The position numbers were made by a program, and so were the translations under genes. Positions 47,308-54,595 of a stretch of 55,077 bases of DNA are shown here, one piece after another. The notes below the pieces were generated by a model. It had not been told where the DNA came from. It searched no databases and saw only the letters and a list, made by a program, of their open reading frames with translations. The stretch lies in contig JAFZVN010000075.1 of NCBI GenBank assembly GCA_017617805.1, positions 1 through 55,077 on the forward strand, in the 5' to 3' direction. Position 1 is the stretch's first letter; each line of letters starts with the position of its first letter. The DNA is from Bacteroidaceae bacterium (GTDB lineage Bacteria; Bacteroidota; Bacteroidia; Bacteroidales; Bacteroidaceae).

Positions 47308-47895
47308 TTATTCTGCCACAGCCACCTTCGCGTAGCGGATTACTTTGTCGTTCAATGTATAACCAGCAGTCATGCAGTCCATCACTTTGCCTTTCATCTC
47401 ATCGGGCTGACCAGGCACCATTGCGATGGCCTCGTGCAGGTCGCTGTCGAAAGCCTGTCCCACTACGTCCATCTTCTTTAGTCCTTCCTGAGCCATCAGC
47501 TTAAAGAACTTGTCGATGATGAGGTTCAGACCCTCTTTCACGGCTGCCACATCTTCATACTTGTCCATGTTCTGCTGTGCACGTTCCAGGTCATCAATGA
47601 TGGGGAGCAGGGTCGTGATGACCTTCGAACCGCCATTCTTGATTAGGTCGGCTTTTTCTTGCATCACACGCTTGCGGAAGTTGTCGAACTCTGCCACCTT
47701 ATACAGTTGCTGGTTCTTCAACTCCTCAATCTGCTTCTCCAATTCAGCGATTTTCTCCTCAGGTGTCAGTTCCTTGGGAGCCTCAGCTTCTTTTGCTTCG
47801 TTTTCTGCCTTTCCATCGGGAGTTTCCTCCGTTTCTTCGGCAGTAGGGTTCACGATTTCCTCGTCAACCTCTTCGTTTTTTATGTCTTTATCCAT
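47308..47895 (-). CDS. grpE: Nucleotide exchange factor GrpE
   Basis: A 195-residue protein. The first 60 residues are very acidic and probably disordered; a long helical stretch follows (about 50-115, [19 protein letters not shown]), with [17 protein letters not shown], and the C-terminal beta domain has [14 protein letters not shown]. GrpE releases ADP from DnaK. It is the first gene of the grpE-dnaJ operon. No clear promoter consensus was found in the 118-nt gap upstream, which holds the terminator of the next gene (47933-47965). Confidence 0.96.
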
Positions 47896-47932
47896 GATTC
47901 AAATGATTTTTATGTTCTACTTGACTGACAAA

Positions 47933-47965
47933 ACAGATGCCAGCGCATGAAACTCTGGCATCTGT
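47933..47965 (-). terminator. Terminator after the DUF4011-helicase gene
   Basis: Perfect 11-bp arms ACAGATGCCAG (47933-47943) and CTGGCATCTGT (47955-47965); on the minus strand the stem leads into TTTTG. It lies about 50 nt past the stop of the 48014-53620 gene and before grpE. Confidence 0.7.
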
Positions 47966-48013
47966 ATGACATTGTGTCACAAATAAGCTTGTTTTTCAGG
48001 AAATCTCTGCCAT

Positions 48014-51000
48014 CTACTTCTGAGATTCATTGATGGACACCAGCCCATTGACATCTCTAATGACATGATTGGCCAGCATCATTTCAAGAATTGAATTGAT
48101 GGTCTCAGCGATTTTGGCTCCAGCACTGGAAAATCCCAGCTTACGGGCTGCAATGGTGGGAACCTTTTCTTTGGGCAGAGAAAATTCCTCCACGATCACT
48201 TCCGCCACAGCATTGACCACCTCTCGTATAGGTATCTCCGTAATGGTTCTTGGCGAAGGCGAACGGTAGCCTTTATAGTTCACAGCGCTCTCCTCGTCCA
48301 GCCACAGGCAAACATTGTCTCCAAATGAGAGGGGGTCACGGAAGCATTGGGCTGTTGCGAAGCTGACGGCCTTTTGGACATTCGCTCCTGCATGACCGAA
48401 TCCCAACAGTTTTGCCAGCCGTTTGCAGAGATAGCTCTCCGTGATGGGCTGTTCCTTAGCCAGTATCTGACGGATGATGTTGGCGTTATAGCTGGCTTTA
48501 GGGTCATAGGTCGCCTTGTCGATGGAGGGGACTTTCACTTCAGCCTCAACGTAGGGTTTCTGCCCCTGGTTTCTGGTGGGTTCCTCCTCAACGTTCGCTT
48601 CCGTAATGGTCTCAGAACTGAATGCTTTGAATGGGGTAGGGTCAGGTTCTGGTTCTTCGATGACAGTTCCTTCTTCGTATGCCTTCAATTCATCCATTAT
48701 TTGGTTGATGCTCCGTTCACGATTCTCGTACCAGTCGATGGAATAGACGCGCATGACGCTCCATCCCAACATCTTCATGACGTTTGGCTGCACGATTTCT
48801 CGGTCGCGTGTGGTCTTGGTTTCGTAGTAGGTCTTGCCGTCGCAGAGGATGCCTAAGATGTATCTCTCAGGATGTTCAGCTGTGGAGACAGCAATGTCCA
48901 CCTTGAAATTGGAACGTCCCACACTTGGGGTAGCGATGTATCCGTGTTCTGTGAGCATGTCGCAGATTTGAGCAATCATGACGTTCGTGTCTGCCGCATG
49001 TGCCGAACTGTCCACCATAGGCAGACGGCCAGTTTCAGCAAATTCAAGGAATCCCTTCAGGCCTTCAACGCCCTTGGCATTGGAACGTTTCAGGTCTATC
49101 TGGCTGGATTTGAGGGTGGAATAGACAATCATCTCGTAACGGGCACGAGACACCGCCACATTCAGACGTCGTTCACCTCCAGCATTGTTGAGTGGACCAA
49201 AGTTCATGGACACCTTACCATTCTTGTCGGCGCCATAACCCACAGAGAAGAGGATCACGTCACGTTCGTCACCCTGCACATTCTCCAGATTCTTCACGAA
49301 GATGGGCTCTCTACTATTATAAGCAATGTCCTTAAGTTCTGGATGACGGTCGAGTTCCTCCGTCAGGTCATCCTCGATGCGGTCTCCCTGCACCTTACTG
49401 AAGGACACCACACCAATGCTGTATTTCTGCAGCACAGGGTCAGACAGCCTGCGAATGATCTCCTTGACAATGGCTTTAGACTCTTCAGGGTTGCTGCGTG
49501 TGCGTCCCTTGTCATAGACTCCTTGGACAGGTACGAGCTTCACCTTAGCCACCTGATCATCGACAGACGGGAAGGTGAAGAGTCGGTTGTTATAGTATTG
49601 GGAGTTGCTGAACGCAATCAGGCTCTCATGCTTGCTTCGATAGTGCCAGCTCAGGTAATACTCTCTCAGCGACAACGTCTTACAGTCATCGAGGATGCTT
49701 TCCATATCGTCAATGTCAGCTTCCTCCTCGTCCACTTGGGTGGTAGAGAAGAAGCTGGTTGGTGGCATCTGCTTGCTGTCACCCACCACAATCAGGGCTT
49801 TGCCTCGTGCGATGGCACCAACAGCCTCGCTGGTTGGCATCTGTGATGCCTCGTCGAAGATGACCAAGTCAAACTTCTCTGATTTCAGGTCGATGTACTG
49901 TGCCACACTGATAGGACTCATCAGCATGCAAGGGCAGAGTCGTGGGAGGAGGGTAGGGATGTTGTCAATGATGGTGCGGATGGAGTTTCCACGACCTCCA
50001 TTGGCGATGTTGCGTTTCAGGATGCTGATTTCCGACCCCTCAGCTGATACGGCAGAAGAAGAAGGTACGCGTGAGGCGAGTTTGCTGTACAGCTCTTCCT
50101 TGCTGAGTTCCTGGAAGCGTAAAGTGTCTCGCTTGTACTGTTCGATGCGCTGACGGAAAATCGTGCCGTTGAAGGTGCGCAGTTGCTCATCCGCATCGAT
50201 GGCGATGGAGATGAGATGATGGTAGACACCTTTCAGGAATGCAGGTATCACATCCTGTGGTTGTTCACCTTTCTCTATTCGTTGCACTACCGTCTGGAGT
50301 TTCATCTCACACAGCTCATTCTTTTTTTCTGTCCAAAGGTACCAGTCTTTCATTTGGGCATAGCCATCGAGCCATCTGCCCAATGCGCCGACAATCTCAG
50401 CCATCGAGTTCTTCTGACGGGTCTTGCTGGCGAGCTGGTTGGTGAGGTCGTTCATCTGCTGATGCAAGCTGAGGATGCCATTGGCGTCTTGCATGAATTC
50501 CTGACGGCCCATCGAACCCATTGCACCAAGGCTGGCTTGATAGGCTGCCACTTTCTGCTGATGGCTGAAGCCGCACTGGTAGGCAAAGGCAACCATCTCC
50601 TCTTCCTGCTGTTTGAGTTCCTTCCCCTTCTGCTGATAAGAATCCACCAGCGTCAACACCTCTTCGATGTTGGATTCATAGATCATTCCAAAGCGCTGCA
50701 TGGACTTGATGAAACTCTTCTTGGCGAAGTATCTGGGCAGGAACCACTTGGCTTTGATTTCCTCCCATTCGCGCTGGCAGGCTTTCACATCCATTCGGAG
50801 GATGTCATCGCTATAGGAAGCTGTGAGGCTTTCATGCAGTTCGTCTTGTTGCTTTTGGGTGGTCAGATAGGCAACGAACCGTTCCAGCCATTGCAAATCC
50901 TTATAGGACTTCAGCTGCATGGAGGTCTTGCCATTCAGTTTGTCCAAAGCCTGACGGAAGTCCGCCAATGTCTGCTTGAATTGCAACAGAAGTGTCTTGA

Positions 51001-53620
51001 TGCCATCCGTTGTTTCTATGCGGTTGTCCAAAGGTTCCAACCCATACAATGCATGTTGTCCAGGGGTGCCGACGATGCCGAGGATGGTGTCGAGCGAATC
51101 CATCTGATCCTTACACTTCGTGAGATAACTGGCGGTCAGCATATCTTTTTCTGGCAGCCCGCCCTCTATCGCATCGTGTGGAATGGACAGATAAGCAGAG
51201 ATGCACTCATACAGGCTCAGCCCGTTGCTGCCTTTCTGATGCAGGGCATCCATATAGCTGATCAGGCTTTTCCGTTCTGCAAACAGCTCTGCGGCCTTCG
51301 TTGCATACTCAGCTGGTTCCTTGATCTTGGTCACATTCAACACCTGATCCATCTGTTCCAAGAAATGCTTCTTGGTGGCTTTGTTGGAATGAAGTTCCAG
51401 ACAGAAAGGAGCCAACCCAATCTTCTCCAAACGTGACTGCACCACAGACAGGGCTGCCATTTTTTCAGCCACGAAGAGCACCCTGCGGCCTTGATACAGC
51501 GCATTGGCAATCATGTTGGTGATGGTTTGCGACTTTCCTGTTCCTGGAGGTCCATGCAGGATGAAAGTTCTTCCTCTGCCAGACTCCACAATGGCTTCCA
51601 TCTGCGAGGAATCCACATCCAACGGAATGGAGAAGTCCATCGGTGAGTTGTCCTTGTCGATGATGCGGGCATCGACTGCCTCCTCCGTCACCTCCTGTTT
51701 GTCACGATTCTCGATGAGCGATGCCACGATGGTATGTGCTGCCAGTTGGTCAGCATTGGCGTGGATATCGTTCCACATGACGAACTTGTTGAAGGAGAAC
51801 AATCCGAGCATGCTCTCTTCCAACACGTTCCATTTCTTCTGTTCCAGGATGGCGCGACGGAAGTAGGTGAAGATTTTCATCACATCCACTCCGCTTTCAT
51901 CCTTGGGCAACTCCTTCAGCATGTCGAGATTGATCTTGAAGTTCTGTTTCAGCAGTTCCACCAGCGTGATGTTCAGGATGATGTCCTCATCACGTTTGCG
52001 GATGACGTATTTGTTGCCGCTCTTCCTGACAATATCCACAGGCAACAGTAGGATAGGGGCATAGCGAGGTTGTTCGCTCTTGGCCGTTTCAAACCATCTG
52101 AGCATGCCCAATGCCAAGAACAAGCTATTAGCACCATTTTCTTCTAATGAGGTACGGGCTGTACGATAGATATAGGTGAGAGCGCTTTGCAGTTCCGTTT
52201 CTGTCAGATAAGACGCAATTTTGTTGTCCTTGATCATTTCAGAGACAAACGTCTGGTATTCAGCAGCCTGATGTTGCGAGTCATACATACCTTCCTCATT
52301 CGGCTCAATCTTCTTGCCAGGCGAAGGCGTGATGATGTAGTCCTCATTGTTCTGCAGATGGTCTTCCAGATGTTCTATTTCGAACGAGATGAACGGAACG
52401 ACTCTTCTGCCAATTCTGGTGTTCAGCAGGTTGTTGCGAAGAGAAAAATCCAACAGCTTACGTTCCCAAATCATCTGCTTGGTCGTAGGCTGTCCTGTGT
52501 CTTCCAGCCGCAAGTCATAATGGTGCAGCTCATTGACATAAGAAGTGGCATTCTGATGCTCCACACCCTCATTGTCAAACGTCCACACACCATCCTTCTG
52601 AATGCGCTGAGGCAACGGACGGATATTGCCCAAACGACAGCGATGGATGTCCACATAGTAGTAGAACTGGCTGTCATCCTTCAGCTTCAGGATCGCGCTT
52701 TTGACAGCATCCTCAAAACCCACGTTCTCCGACGATGTGATGGCTGTCGATTCGAGCAGCACCAAGTTGTTGTTGCCATCTGCCGTTTCCTTGAGCAGGA
52801 GGCTCACATCATCGCCCACCATCTGAGGACTGACGGTTGGAGTCAGCCAAGCGCCCACCATCGCATGACCCTTCATCATGACCAGGATAGGGTAGATCTC
52901 ACATGCTTCCAGACAAGAGGCAATCAGCAAGCTGGTGTCGATGCAAGTGCCCAACTTCTCAGTCAGAACTTTGTCTGCCAATCGGATGCGCTGTCCACTG
53001 GTCTCAAAGCTGGCAGGAGGAGCCGAATAGACGATCCCCTCCGAACGCAATGCCTCGTAGATGGCAGCCACCTGAGCACGCACACGGTTTCTGTCTTGTG
53101 TCTGATACTCGTCCAACTGCGAAGAGCCCGTCCATTTCTCCAAGAACTGAGCGGCAGCCACCTTGATTCTCGACAGCATGGGGTTGTTGGGCACCACGAA
53201 GGCAGCGATATGCTCAGGCATCACATTCGCACCCGCCCATTCATCGTATGCCATGAGCGTGATGGGAAGCTCCTGCTGCAACAGCAGTCCGTTCTCCTCT
53301 TCAATGATGACGGTGAAGGTCGTGTTGACAGCCTCCGTGATGGTGCTGAGCTGCTGGATGTCAGGCATAATCTTCACAGCGCTCACCTGCACCGACTGTC
53401 CTCCTCGCAAGAACTCGAGCCGCTGGACATGTTCTTTGATCAGTTCCCCCCGAATGGTGATCTGAATCTGGTGCCAGTCACGCTGTTCGATATTTTCCAG
53501 CACAAACTTATAGCAGGTTTCCACGCCGCTATTCAGCATCGAATAGTTAAGAGAGGGAAGGTATTCTATGGTCAGAATCGCTTTCTCAGTCCTCATTTGC
53601 TCTTGTCCGTTCATGTTCAC
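48014..53620 (-). CDS. Giant protein: transglutaminase-like domain, DUF4011, SF1 helicase, PD-(D/E)XK-type nuclease and DUF3320
   Basis: An 1868-residue single-gene protein. Residues 1-370 hold beta-rich sequence and a transglutaminase-like segment (KLGTCIDTS with Cys at about 226, KGHAMVGAW with His at about 252). DUF4011 starts near 378 (WERKLLDFSLRNNLLN). A superfamily 1 helicase spans about 670-1500: Walker A GPPGTGKS at 690-697, Walker B FDEASQMP near 1255, GDSKQMPP, VQGDERDVI and NVAVSRAR near 1485. Near 1550-1650 is a Vsr/MTES-type nuclease core (FKVDIAV with Asp at about 1575, GILCDGKTYY with Asp at about 1594). DUF3320-like helical segments end the protein. Proteins of this plan are known from anti-phage screens, so defence is the likeliest role; DNA repair is an alternative. 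Promoter at 53637-53667. Confidence 0.87.
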   Translation of the reverse strand: MNMNGQEQMRTEKAILTIEYLPSLNYSMLNSGVETCYKFVLENIEQRDWHQIQITIRGELIKEHVQRLEFLRGGQSVQVSAVKIMPDIQQLSTITEAVNTTFTVIIEEENGLLLQQELPITLMAYDEWAGANVMPEHIAAFVVPNNPMLSRIKVAAAQFLEKWTGSSQLDEYQTQDRNRVRAQVAAIYEALRSEGIVYSAPPASFETSGQRIRLADKVLTEKLGTCIDTSLLIASCLEACEIYPILVMMKGHAMVGAWLTPTVSPQMVGDDVSLLLKETADGNNNLVLLESTAITSSENVGFEDAVKSAILKLKDDSQFYYYVDIHRCRLGNIRPLPQRIQKDGVWTFDNEGVEHQNATSYVNELHHYDLRLEDTGQPTTKQMIWERKLLDFSLRNNLLNTRIGRRVVPFISFEIEHLEDHLQNNEDYIITPSPGKKIEPNEEGMYDSQHQAAEYQTFVSEMIKDNKIASYLTETELQSALTYIYRTARTSLEENGANSLFLALGMLRWFETAKSEQPRYAPILLLPVDIVRKSGNKYVIRKRDEDIILNITLVELLKQNFKINLDMLKELPKDESGVDVMKIFTYFRRAILEQKKWNVLEESMLGLFSFNKFVMWNDIHANADQLAAHTIVASLIENRDKQEVTEEAVDARIIDKDNSPMDFSIPLDVDSSQMEAIVESGRGRTFILHGPPGTGKSQTITNMIANALYQGRRVLFVAEKMAALSVVQSRLEKIGLAPFCLELHSNKATKKHFLEQMDQVLNVTKIKEPAEYATKAAELFAERKSLISYMDALHQKGSNGLSLYECISAYLSIPHDAIEGGLPEKDMLTASYLTKCKDQMDSLDTILGIVGTPGQHALYGLEPLDNRIETTDGIKTLLLQFKQTLADFRQALDKLNGKTSMQLKSYKDLQWLERFVAYLTTQKQQDELHESLTASYSDDILRMDVKACQREWEEIKAKWFLPRYFAKKSFIKSMQRFGMIYESNIEEVLTLVDSYQQKGKELKQQEEEMVAFAYQCGFSHQQKVAAYQASLGAMGSMGRQEFMQDANGILSLHQQMNDLTNQLASKTRQKNSMAEIVGALGRWLDGYAQMKDWYLWTEKKNELCEMKLQTVVQRIEKGEQPQDVIPAFLKGVYHHLISIAIDADEQLRTFNGTIFRQRIEQYKRDTLRFQELSKEELYSKLASRVPSSSAVSAEGSEISILKRNIANGGRGNSIRTIIDNIPTLLPRLCPCMLMSPISVAQYIDLKSEKFDLVIFDEASQMPTSEAVGAIARGKALIVVGDSKQMPPTSFFSTTQVDEEEADIDDMESILDDCKTLSLREYYLSWHYRSKHESLIAFSNSQYYNNRLFTFPSVDDQVAKVKLVPVQGVYDKGRTRSNPEESKAIVKEIIRRLSDPVLQKYSIGVVSFSKVQGDRIEDDLTEELDRHPELKDIAYNSREPIFVKNLENVQGDERDVILFSVGYGADKNGKVSMNFGPLNNAGGERRLNVAVSRARYEMIVYSTLKSSQIDLKRSNAKGVEGLKGFLEFAETGRLPMVDSSAHAADTNVMIAQICDMLTEHGYIATPSVGRSNFKVDIAVSTAEHPERYILGILCDGKTYYETKTTRDREIVQPNVMKMLGWSVMRVYSIDWYENRERSINQIMDELKAYEEGTVIEEPEPDPTPFKAFSSETITEANVEEEPTRNQGQKPYVEAEVKVPSIDKATYDPKASYNANIIRQILAKEQPITESYLCKRLAKLLGFGHAGANVQKAVSFATAQCFRDPLSFGDNVCLWLDEESAVNYKGYRSPSPRTITEIPIREVVNAVAEVIVEEFSLPKEKVPTIAARKLGFSSAGAKIAETINSILEMMLANHVIRDVNGLVSINESQK

Positions 53621-53698: not shown

Positions 53699-54595
53699 TT
53701 AGTATTTCAAGTAAAATGTTTTTCGAGAATCATCACCCATTGGGATTCGACACTCACATCTCACACGTTCTGATTTTTCTTTCTGGCTTAACAGCTTCAG
53801 CATTTGACCAATCTGCTTGTCGGTCAACTTGGCTGGGTCAAACCAGTATCCAAAACCATCTTCATCGTCCATCATCATGGACTCTGGATAGCGCAGCAAA
53901 ACATTGCCGTTTTCCTTGTCAAACACACACTCAATCTCCTTCAATTCATCATCACGCCTCAATGTCACCACGCTGGATTCTGGTGATACAATCATGCCAT
54001 CAACGAGTACACCAACATCAATCCACTCTTCACCCCATGCTTCATCTGAGCCTATATCCATCACAAGCCCAGCATATTTCCCTTCGGTCTTCACAATGGT
54101 CGGACTCAGCTTCCATTGGTTTGGGGCTTTGACCATATCTGCTGTGAGAGGTTCAAACTTCACCACCTCAGCATCAGACCTCCGTATGTAGCCAACTTCC
54201 AAATCCGGCGCATAATTCTTATAAATGTTAACCTTCCAGAAGTCACCTTCTTCACCTAATAGAAGAAGTGTCTCTCCAGCATACTCTACAGACTTTTCCG
54301 CAGTACACTCGCTGGGTACTTCTTCATCAGACCATGTCACATCCACTTGCACCTCACCTTCTTCCTCATCCTCGCTCAACCAAATCACAAGCCAAGGGCT
54401 GTTGGCACTGGCAGACTTGAACACGTCTGCGCCTTCATCTGAAGTCACTCGCACAAACGCCTCTATCTTGGGCACTTTCACGCCCAGAACATTGTCAAAA
54501 CCACCTGCAGGTTGATCACTCTTTGCGTTGCTTGTGCAACTCCATGTCATCAGGGATACTATCATCCCCAACAACATCAAAATACTTTTTCTCAT
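53699..54595 (-). CDS. Acidic lipoprotein of unknown function with an SH3-like segment
   Basis: A 298-residue protein with a signal and lipobox (MTWSC, Cys at about 20). The mature part is rich in Asp and Glu. A stretch near residues 105-140 (ETLLLLGEEGDFWKVNIYKN then VGYIRRSD) resembles a bacterial SH3 repeat, which often binds peptidoglycan or other envelope partners. The remainder is beta-rich and no family is recognised. It is 78 nt downstream of nothing on its own strand except the helicase gene that follows it, which has its own promoter. A promoter at 54789-54820 lies upstream, before a short ORF. Confidence 0.75.
   Translation of the reverse strand: MRKSILMLLGMIVSLMTWSCTSNAKSDQPAGGFDNVLGVKVPKIEAFVRVTSDEGADVFKSASANSPWLVIWLSEDEEEGEVQVDVTWSDEEVPSECTAEKSVEYAGETLLLLGEEGDFWKVNIYKNYAPDLEVGYIRRSDAEVVKFEPLTADMVKAPNQWKLSPTIVKTEGKYAGLVMDIGSDEAWGEEWIDVGVLVDGMIVSPESSVVTLRRDDELKEIECVFDKENGNVLLRYPESMMMDDEDGFGYWFDPAKLTDKQIGQMLKLLSQKEKSERVRCECRIPMGDDSRKTFYLKY

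Follow-up and report, generated by a model that had tools for sequence, protein, structure and literature searches.

Closest described systems

Giant proteins that combine a HEPN RNase domain, a transglutaminase-like peptidase, an SF1 helicase, a Vsr-family nuclease and winged helices have been described, with MTES_1575 as an example (Anantharaman et al. 2013, PMC3710099). The passages of that paper devoted to these proteins report that they occur without associated modification genes, argue a role on DNA from that absence, and suggest that invading DNA is recognized directly and that the transglutaminase part cleaves proteins. Transglutaminase-like thiol peptidases also occur, rarely, as components of other conflict systems according to the section of a second paper that treats them (PMC7159879). 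Among profile collections, NCBIfam holds ProA (NF058533.1 antiphage_ProA, an equivalog) and Hhe (NF042953, a DUF4011 domain-containing anti-phage protein), and PADLOC-DB 2.0.0 holds PDC-S37, a candidate phage defense. A search of the open-licence literature found no published anti-phage test of ProA and likewise no publication behind its name, so the anti-phage label of ProA rests on the name given by NCBI.

A Prevotella member of the ProA family

The window (the whole stretch of 55,077 nucleotides analyzed here) carries a gene whose protein scored 1871.5 bits against the ProA profile, above the cut-off of 1500. In the genome search the same profile gave 1871.7 bits, with positions 1-1902 of 1903 covered in two stretches and one frame. 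The gene is a Prevotella copy and a new member of the family that NCBI names anti-phage, and passing this cut-off supports the link to phage defense drawn in the initial annotation. Homologues on three plasmids, from Rhizobium, Klebsiella and Acinetobacter, also exceed the ProA cut-off; because their matches begin at profile position 1 or 2, the ProA profile takes in the N-terminal part, and we saw no difference of layout between ProA and the window protein. The best PADLOC match was PDC-S37 (1155.1 bits, E 0, judged by score without PADLOC's coverage rules), whose best stretch aligned residues 989-1862 with positions 687-1545 of a 1550-position profile that is 318 positions shorter than the window protein. 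The PADLOC runner-up was Hhe, at 536.8.

The initial annotation had placed the protein with Hhe. Hhe does share the DUF4011, helicase and nuclease core, but its NCBIfam model gave 765.6 bits where 2000 are required, and we rejected that identity. Across 395 genomes of the phylum, the two best matches to the Hhe model start at about DUF4011 and lack the transglutaminase domain; both fall below the Hhe cut-off, so they are not true Hhe either. Outside these systems, one of 47 rows in our alignment of the transglutaminase-like domain (alignment A7) matched the CEP76 peptidase-like domain (Pfam PF24656), weakly (E 0.0045), and the proteins are otherwise different.

With the giants of 2013, as far as they are portrayed in the relevant passages, the window protein has in common a transglutaminase-like part, an SF1 helicase, an MTES_1575/Vsr-type nuclease and two DUF3320 units, whereas their HEPN RNase domain has no recognisable counterpart in it. 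We considered a HEPN domain in place of the N-terminal region and rejected it, there being no conserved R-x(4-6)-H pair in the family alignment and no match of the window protein to any HEPN family. Both the layout and the central idea are already known, since those passages described such proteins and proposed both DNA recognition and protein cleavage; the added transglutaminase domain, taken at first for a novelty, has been in print since 2013 (PMC3710099). What is added here is the wide conservation of a Cys, a His and an acidic residue, the recurrent lack of the domain, and a solitary and changing location outside defense islands.

Domain layout and conserved residues

Gene calling followed a simple longest-ORF rule, and the features of the locus are collected in Table 1. 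The reading of the protein as a five-part enzyme holds up: DUF4011, the split SF1 helicase and MTES_1575 exceed their Pfam cut-offs, and DUF3320 and Transglut_core fall below theirs, the latter faring better on the family. The motifs GTCID (224, with Cys226), GHAM (251, with His252), GPPGTGKS (690), DEAS (1256), VDIAV (1574, with Asp1575) and CDG (1593, with Asp1594) all lie where the initial annotation had placed them. Residues 16-125 gave no Pfam match.

Table 1. Features of the proA-like gene and its flanks (window positions; residues are those of the window protein)
Feature	Position	Strand	Basis or remark
proA-like gene	48014..53620	-	Open frame, 1868 codons/aa; GTG start; alternative in-frame ATG at 53614, two codons on
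N-terminal region, residues 16-125	53246..53575	-	Four relatives retain it but not the transglutaminase domain
Transglutaminase-like domain, residues 134-345	52586..53221	-	Transglut_core matches across the family; below Pfam cut-off in the window protein
Cys226, putative catalytic	52943..52945	-	Conservation in relatives
His252, putative catalytic	52865..52867	-	Conservation in relatives
Glu290, candidate third residue	52751..52753	-	Conservation in relatives
DUF4011, residues 388-557	51950..52459	-	Pfam E 3e-43
SF1 helicase, first part: AAA_11 residues 669-735, Walker A GPPGTGKS 690-697	51416..51616	-	Pfam (about 1e-16) and motif position
Stretch between helicase parts, residues 781-1235	49916..51280	-	Among the faster-changing parts
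SF1 helicase, second part: DEAS 1256, AAA_12 1318-1500	49109..49906	-	Pfam (about 1e-16)
Vsr/MTES_1575-type nuclease, residues 1551-1645, Asp1575 and Asp1594	48686..48970	-	Pfam 83.5 bits, cut-off 38.2, E 1e-23
DUF3320-like unit 1, residues 1710-1761	48338..48493	-	Pfam DUF3320 at 1714-1749, 22.1 bits, below cut-off of 25
DUF3320-like unit 2, residues 1799-1850	48071..48226	-	hhalign with unit 1
Candidate promoter, TTG-N20-TANNTTTG	53667-53637	-	Bacteroidetes-type pattern match; the two strands of the window hold 9 such matches, two of them overlapping
Stem-loop downstream of proA	47965-47933	-	Within the 47933-47980 element upstream of grpE

Conservation was followed in the nearer relatives, the best 80 of 154 confirmed stretches, which make up 79 loci (given L numbers below). 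D1256 and E1257 of the helicase are kept in 79 of 79, and the nuclease residues D1575 and D1594 are both kept in all 76 that reach the nuclease region. The C-terminal DUF3320-like units align with each other over 52 columns (hhalign probability 95.4) as copies of a single unit of about 52 residues, and this pairing fits the two winged-helix units that the corresponding passage of PMC3710099 places at DUF3320. The region past residue 1520 is about 95 residues shorter in nine relatives (L035, L036, L037, L039, L042, L073, L074, L077 and L078) than in the window protein, so these may lack one DUF3320-like unit. Alignment A3 (64 relatives and the window protein) omits nine relatives with a short C-terminus and six cut by a contig end.

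A transglutaminase-like domain with conserved Cys, His and acidic residues

In the window protein, Transglut_core matched residues 171-242 with 12.9 bits (E 0.14) against a Pfam cut-off of 23. At E <= 1 it matched 61 of the 69 N-termini in the alignment (best 2.7e-4), and at E <= 0.01 it matched 19 of the 47 rows in alignment A7 (best 7.1e-5); the assignment, a sequence-based one, is stronger on the family than on the window protein alone. Searches of solved structures by sequence with the N-terminus or the domain alone returned nothing significant.

Seventy of the nearer relatives have a residue at the position of Cys226. Cys226 is kept in 68 of these and His252 likewise in 68, and position 290 holds Glu in 68 and Asp in two; Cys or His or both are lost in three (L005, L008 and L062), where the domain itself is still there. 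Alignment A2 contains 68 of the 70 and the window protein, L036 and L037 being omitted as near copies of L035. Among distant homologues from plasmid and phage collections, the 17 that were fetched out of 80 matching records (79 plasmid, one phage), including L162 and L167, which are not established as ProA, have the Cys in 17 of 17 and the His in 17 of 17, with Glu (14), Asp (two) or Asn (one) as the third residue. The Cys and His columns of alignment A7 are invariant in a way that ignores the three losses, as L062 (Cys and His lost) is omitted from this alignment along with L155 (almost a duplicate of L152), and the selection of rows included neither L005 nor L008. The family thus shows the order Cys, His, Asp/Glu/Asn of transglutaminase-like thiol peptidases, and the conserved Cys-His pair and nuclease Asp residues that the initial annotation had asked to be checked across homologues are there.

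Compared with L001, L019 and L002, the dN/dS of the transglutaminase-like domain is 0.046, 0.056 and 0.052 (the comparison with L030 is saturated), and that of residues 781-1235 is 0.086, 0.113 and 0.098; by these ratios the domain is under purifying selection.

A Streptomyces plasmid protein (L162:11077-17220) carries a related transglutaminase-like domain (profile E 1e-10) on the N-terminal side of a STAND ATPase with TPR repeats (Pfam). The domain therefore seems, from these profile matches, to be common to another conflict-type protein.

The transglutaminase-like domain is accessory

Eight of the 79 nearer relatives lack the transglutaminase domain. Four of them (L018, L020, L048 and L061; 62-75% identical in the rest of the protein) begin about at DUF4011, so that the whole N-terminal part is absent. 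The other four (L073, L074, L077 and L078; 51-55% identical) retain the first 113-114 positions of the N-termini profile, which matches them only over positions 3 to 113-114, and are without the transglutaminase half. L011, which ends at a contig end, was not counted. On a tree of residues 388-1660 (80 rows; FastTree, no bootstrap) the three N-terminal states need at least four changes, and we read the absences as losses from their places among domain-bearing rows. All eight domain-less relatives keep both nuclease Asp residues.

The same picture was obtained across the phylum, where 18 of 296 genomes exceed the ProA cut-off: in five of the 18 the match begins at profile position 344-355 and so leaves out the domain, and a further genome (G049 in our numbering of genomes) was matched in two pieces. 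Because the domain is absent through at least four tree changes and in these five genomes, with the nuclease Asp residues kept in the domain-less relatives, it is accessory and does not belong to the core. The available flanks of L018, L020, L048 and L061 contained no stand-alone transglutaminase gene. An apparently split transglutaminase gene at L157, L159 and L161 was discarded as a sign of linkage, as these loci are possibly frameshifted or broken.

Distribution and genomic setting

In the genus of the window, 10 of 45 genomes match at E <= 1e-50, its own included, and one of 14 among the high-quality ones; grpE was found in 43 of the 45. Many of these genomes are incomplete and fragmented (the window's own is 66% complete), and five of the ten are in pieces, with no more than 37-55% identity. 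This is the patchy presence that had been proposed as a check. The N-terminal part matches 79 of 72,556 plasmid records, 24 of the 79 being predicted conjugative. In one genome (G024, listed contamination 8%) contigs C57 and C221 both carry matches, each in pieces, as if from two diverged copies.

The gene is adjoined on one side by grpE and dnaJ, as the initial annotation had it. The neighbor on the other side, described there as a lipoprotein, is a 298-aa ORF (window 53699-54595) with no match in Pfam, PADLOC or NCBIfam, and we read it as a lipoprotein by eye, from a signal-like start and a Cys. Its close copies in the genus (60-76% identity) lie on contigs without grpE or proA. A paralogue 38% identical to it is found in the same genome (G000:C17), and paralogues of 34-39% lie at most about 8 kb from grpE in G020, G030 and G041.

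Within the genus, proA and grpE share a contig only in the window's genome and in G040, and the region upstream of grpE carries other genes in G018, G038 and G006. Among the 79 relatives, whose flanks are in many cases short, grpE and dnaJ flank the gene only in L001. No neighbor family within three genes is common to more than four of the 79 loci, and neighbor strands are near even (37/31 and 34/34). The gene is therefore solitary, as first described, with no common partner in the nearer relatives.

Set A4 comprises the 127 closed ORFs of 90-900 aa that lie nearest to the 79 loci, and the control set A5 comprises 127 out of 244 ORFs sampled randomly from stretches of the genus genomes. Four PADLOC families matched one of the nearest neighbors each at 1e-10, which is at most four of 127, and the N-terminus of a type I restriction R subunit (Pfam) was found in four of 127. 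Matches of the random control spread over 132 PADLOC families, among them type I restriction genes; this number counts families and not proteins. No enrichment of defense genes beside the 79 loci was seen with PADLOC among these neighbors. The initial annotation had named universal presence at this locus together with no link to defense islands as an outcome that would speak against it. Although no island link was seen, presence is not universal, so defense is not refuted by these results.

On two rhizobial plasmids (L154:11920-21651 and L168:11983-21721) a ProA-like gene has two genes of the same orientation downstream, one SbcD-like and the other weakly matching SMC or Rad50, all of these matches being below the NCBIfam cut-offs. 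A three-gene version is possible, and because of these downstream genes some relatives may act with partners.

Possible functions

The protein is probably a solitary, DNA-targeting anti-phage enzyme of the ProA family (PDC-S37) that carries an optional and dispensable thiol-protease-like module. We infer the defensive role, the DNA target and each step of the following mechanism from the domains and their conservation. The paired C-terminal DUF3320 units and the helicase would engage foreign DNA, along which the SF1 motor would travel at the expense of ATP, and the Vsr-like nuclease would cut or nick it with no partner methylase. The transglutaminase-like domain would most likely be a thiol protease or a related acyl-transfer enzyme acting on a protein (the enzyme itself, a host protein or a phage protein) and would add a second, dispensable activity. 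What it is for could be seen in several ways. It is unlikely that it is a second, protein-directed effector beside the DNA-cutting one, gained and lost as a unit. One gene holding a motor-nuclease and a protease-like domain would then attack two kinds of target, making this a single-gene defense with two independent targets for which the domain-less relatives are natural controls. As relatives without the N-terminal part or without the transglutaminase half exist, the protein-cleavage proposal in the 2013 passages is directly testable. A regulatory domain, which by self-cleavage, self-modification or ligand binding keeps the helicase-nuclease off until infection, is a reading that we hold tentatively and somewhat doubt. 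A removable control part would explain why the domain can go while the nuclease Asp residues stay, and the three relatives that keep the domain despite a lost Cys or His agree with it; but losing an inhibitory part should be toxic and the domain-less relatives persist, and a Cys, a His and an acidic residue kept across phyla fit an enzyme.

A rather improbable alternative to a solitary anti-phage enzyme is a DNA repair or recombination enzyme, a helicase-nuclease like IGHMBP2 or Dna2, with no defense role. The best solved-structure relatives of the window protein by sequence are SMUBP-2, SEN1 and UPF1, the SbcD-like and weak SMC/Rad50-like genes on the rhizobial plasmids would suit such a function, and the nearest neighbors in Bacteroidales are mostly non-defense genes. 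In addition, a large DUF4011 gene, which may or may not be a ProA, is a core gene flanking a defense hotspot in every P. aeruginosa isolate checked, according to the portion of PMC10250203 that covers this hotspot. Patchiness within one genus, matches on plasmids and neighbors that differ from locus to locus are, however, unusual for a repair gene. A factor that excludes plasmids or conjugation, Wadjet-like in role, would have the identical predicted target, foreign DNA, and the plasmid records with the N-terminal part, some of them predicted conjugative, could be taken in its favor; the NCBI name says anti-phage, and we consider plasmid exclusion very unlikely.

Promoter and downstream stem-loop

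The gene had been credited with a promoter and a terminator of its own. The promoter stands as a candidate match to a consensus that we take to be of Bacteroidetes type, whereas a consensus scan of 47890-48060 found no terminator of proA's own. The stem-loop and the palindrome TGACACAATGTCA precede grpE in nine of nine aligned genus genomes, with small changes, and seven of these are without proA there; the element as a whole is conserved upstream of grpE in most of 30 aligned genus genomes. As it precedes grpE also where proA is missing, the stem-loop is not proA's own: it belongs with grpE and did not arrive with proA, though it could still end the proA transcript.

No part of the window matched Rfam, and a single copy of the palindrome pattern TGACANNNTGTCA is present in the window's genome. 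On the minus strand the element (47933-47980) consists of the palindrome TGACA-N3-TGTCA, then TGCCAG-loop-CTGGCA, then TTTTGT. Its right arm and T-run loosely resemble what we take to be a sigma-54 -24/-12 site, and the element may be a heat-shock control element.
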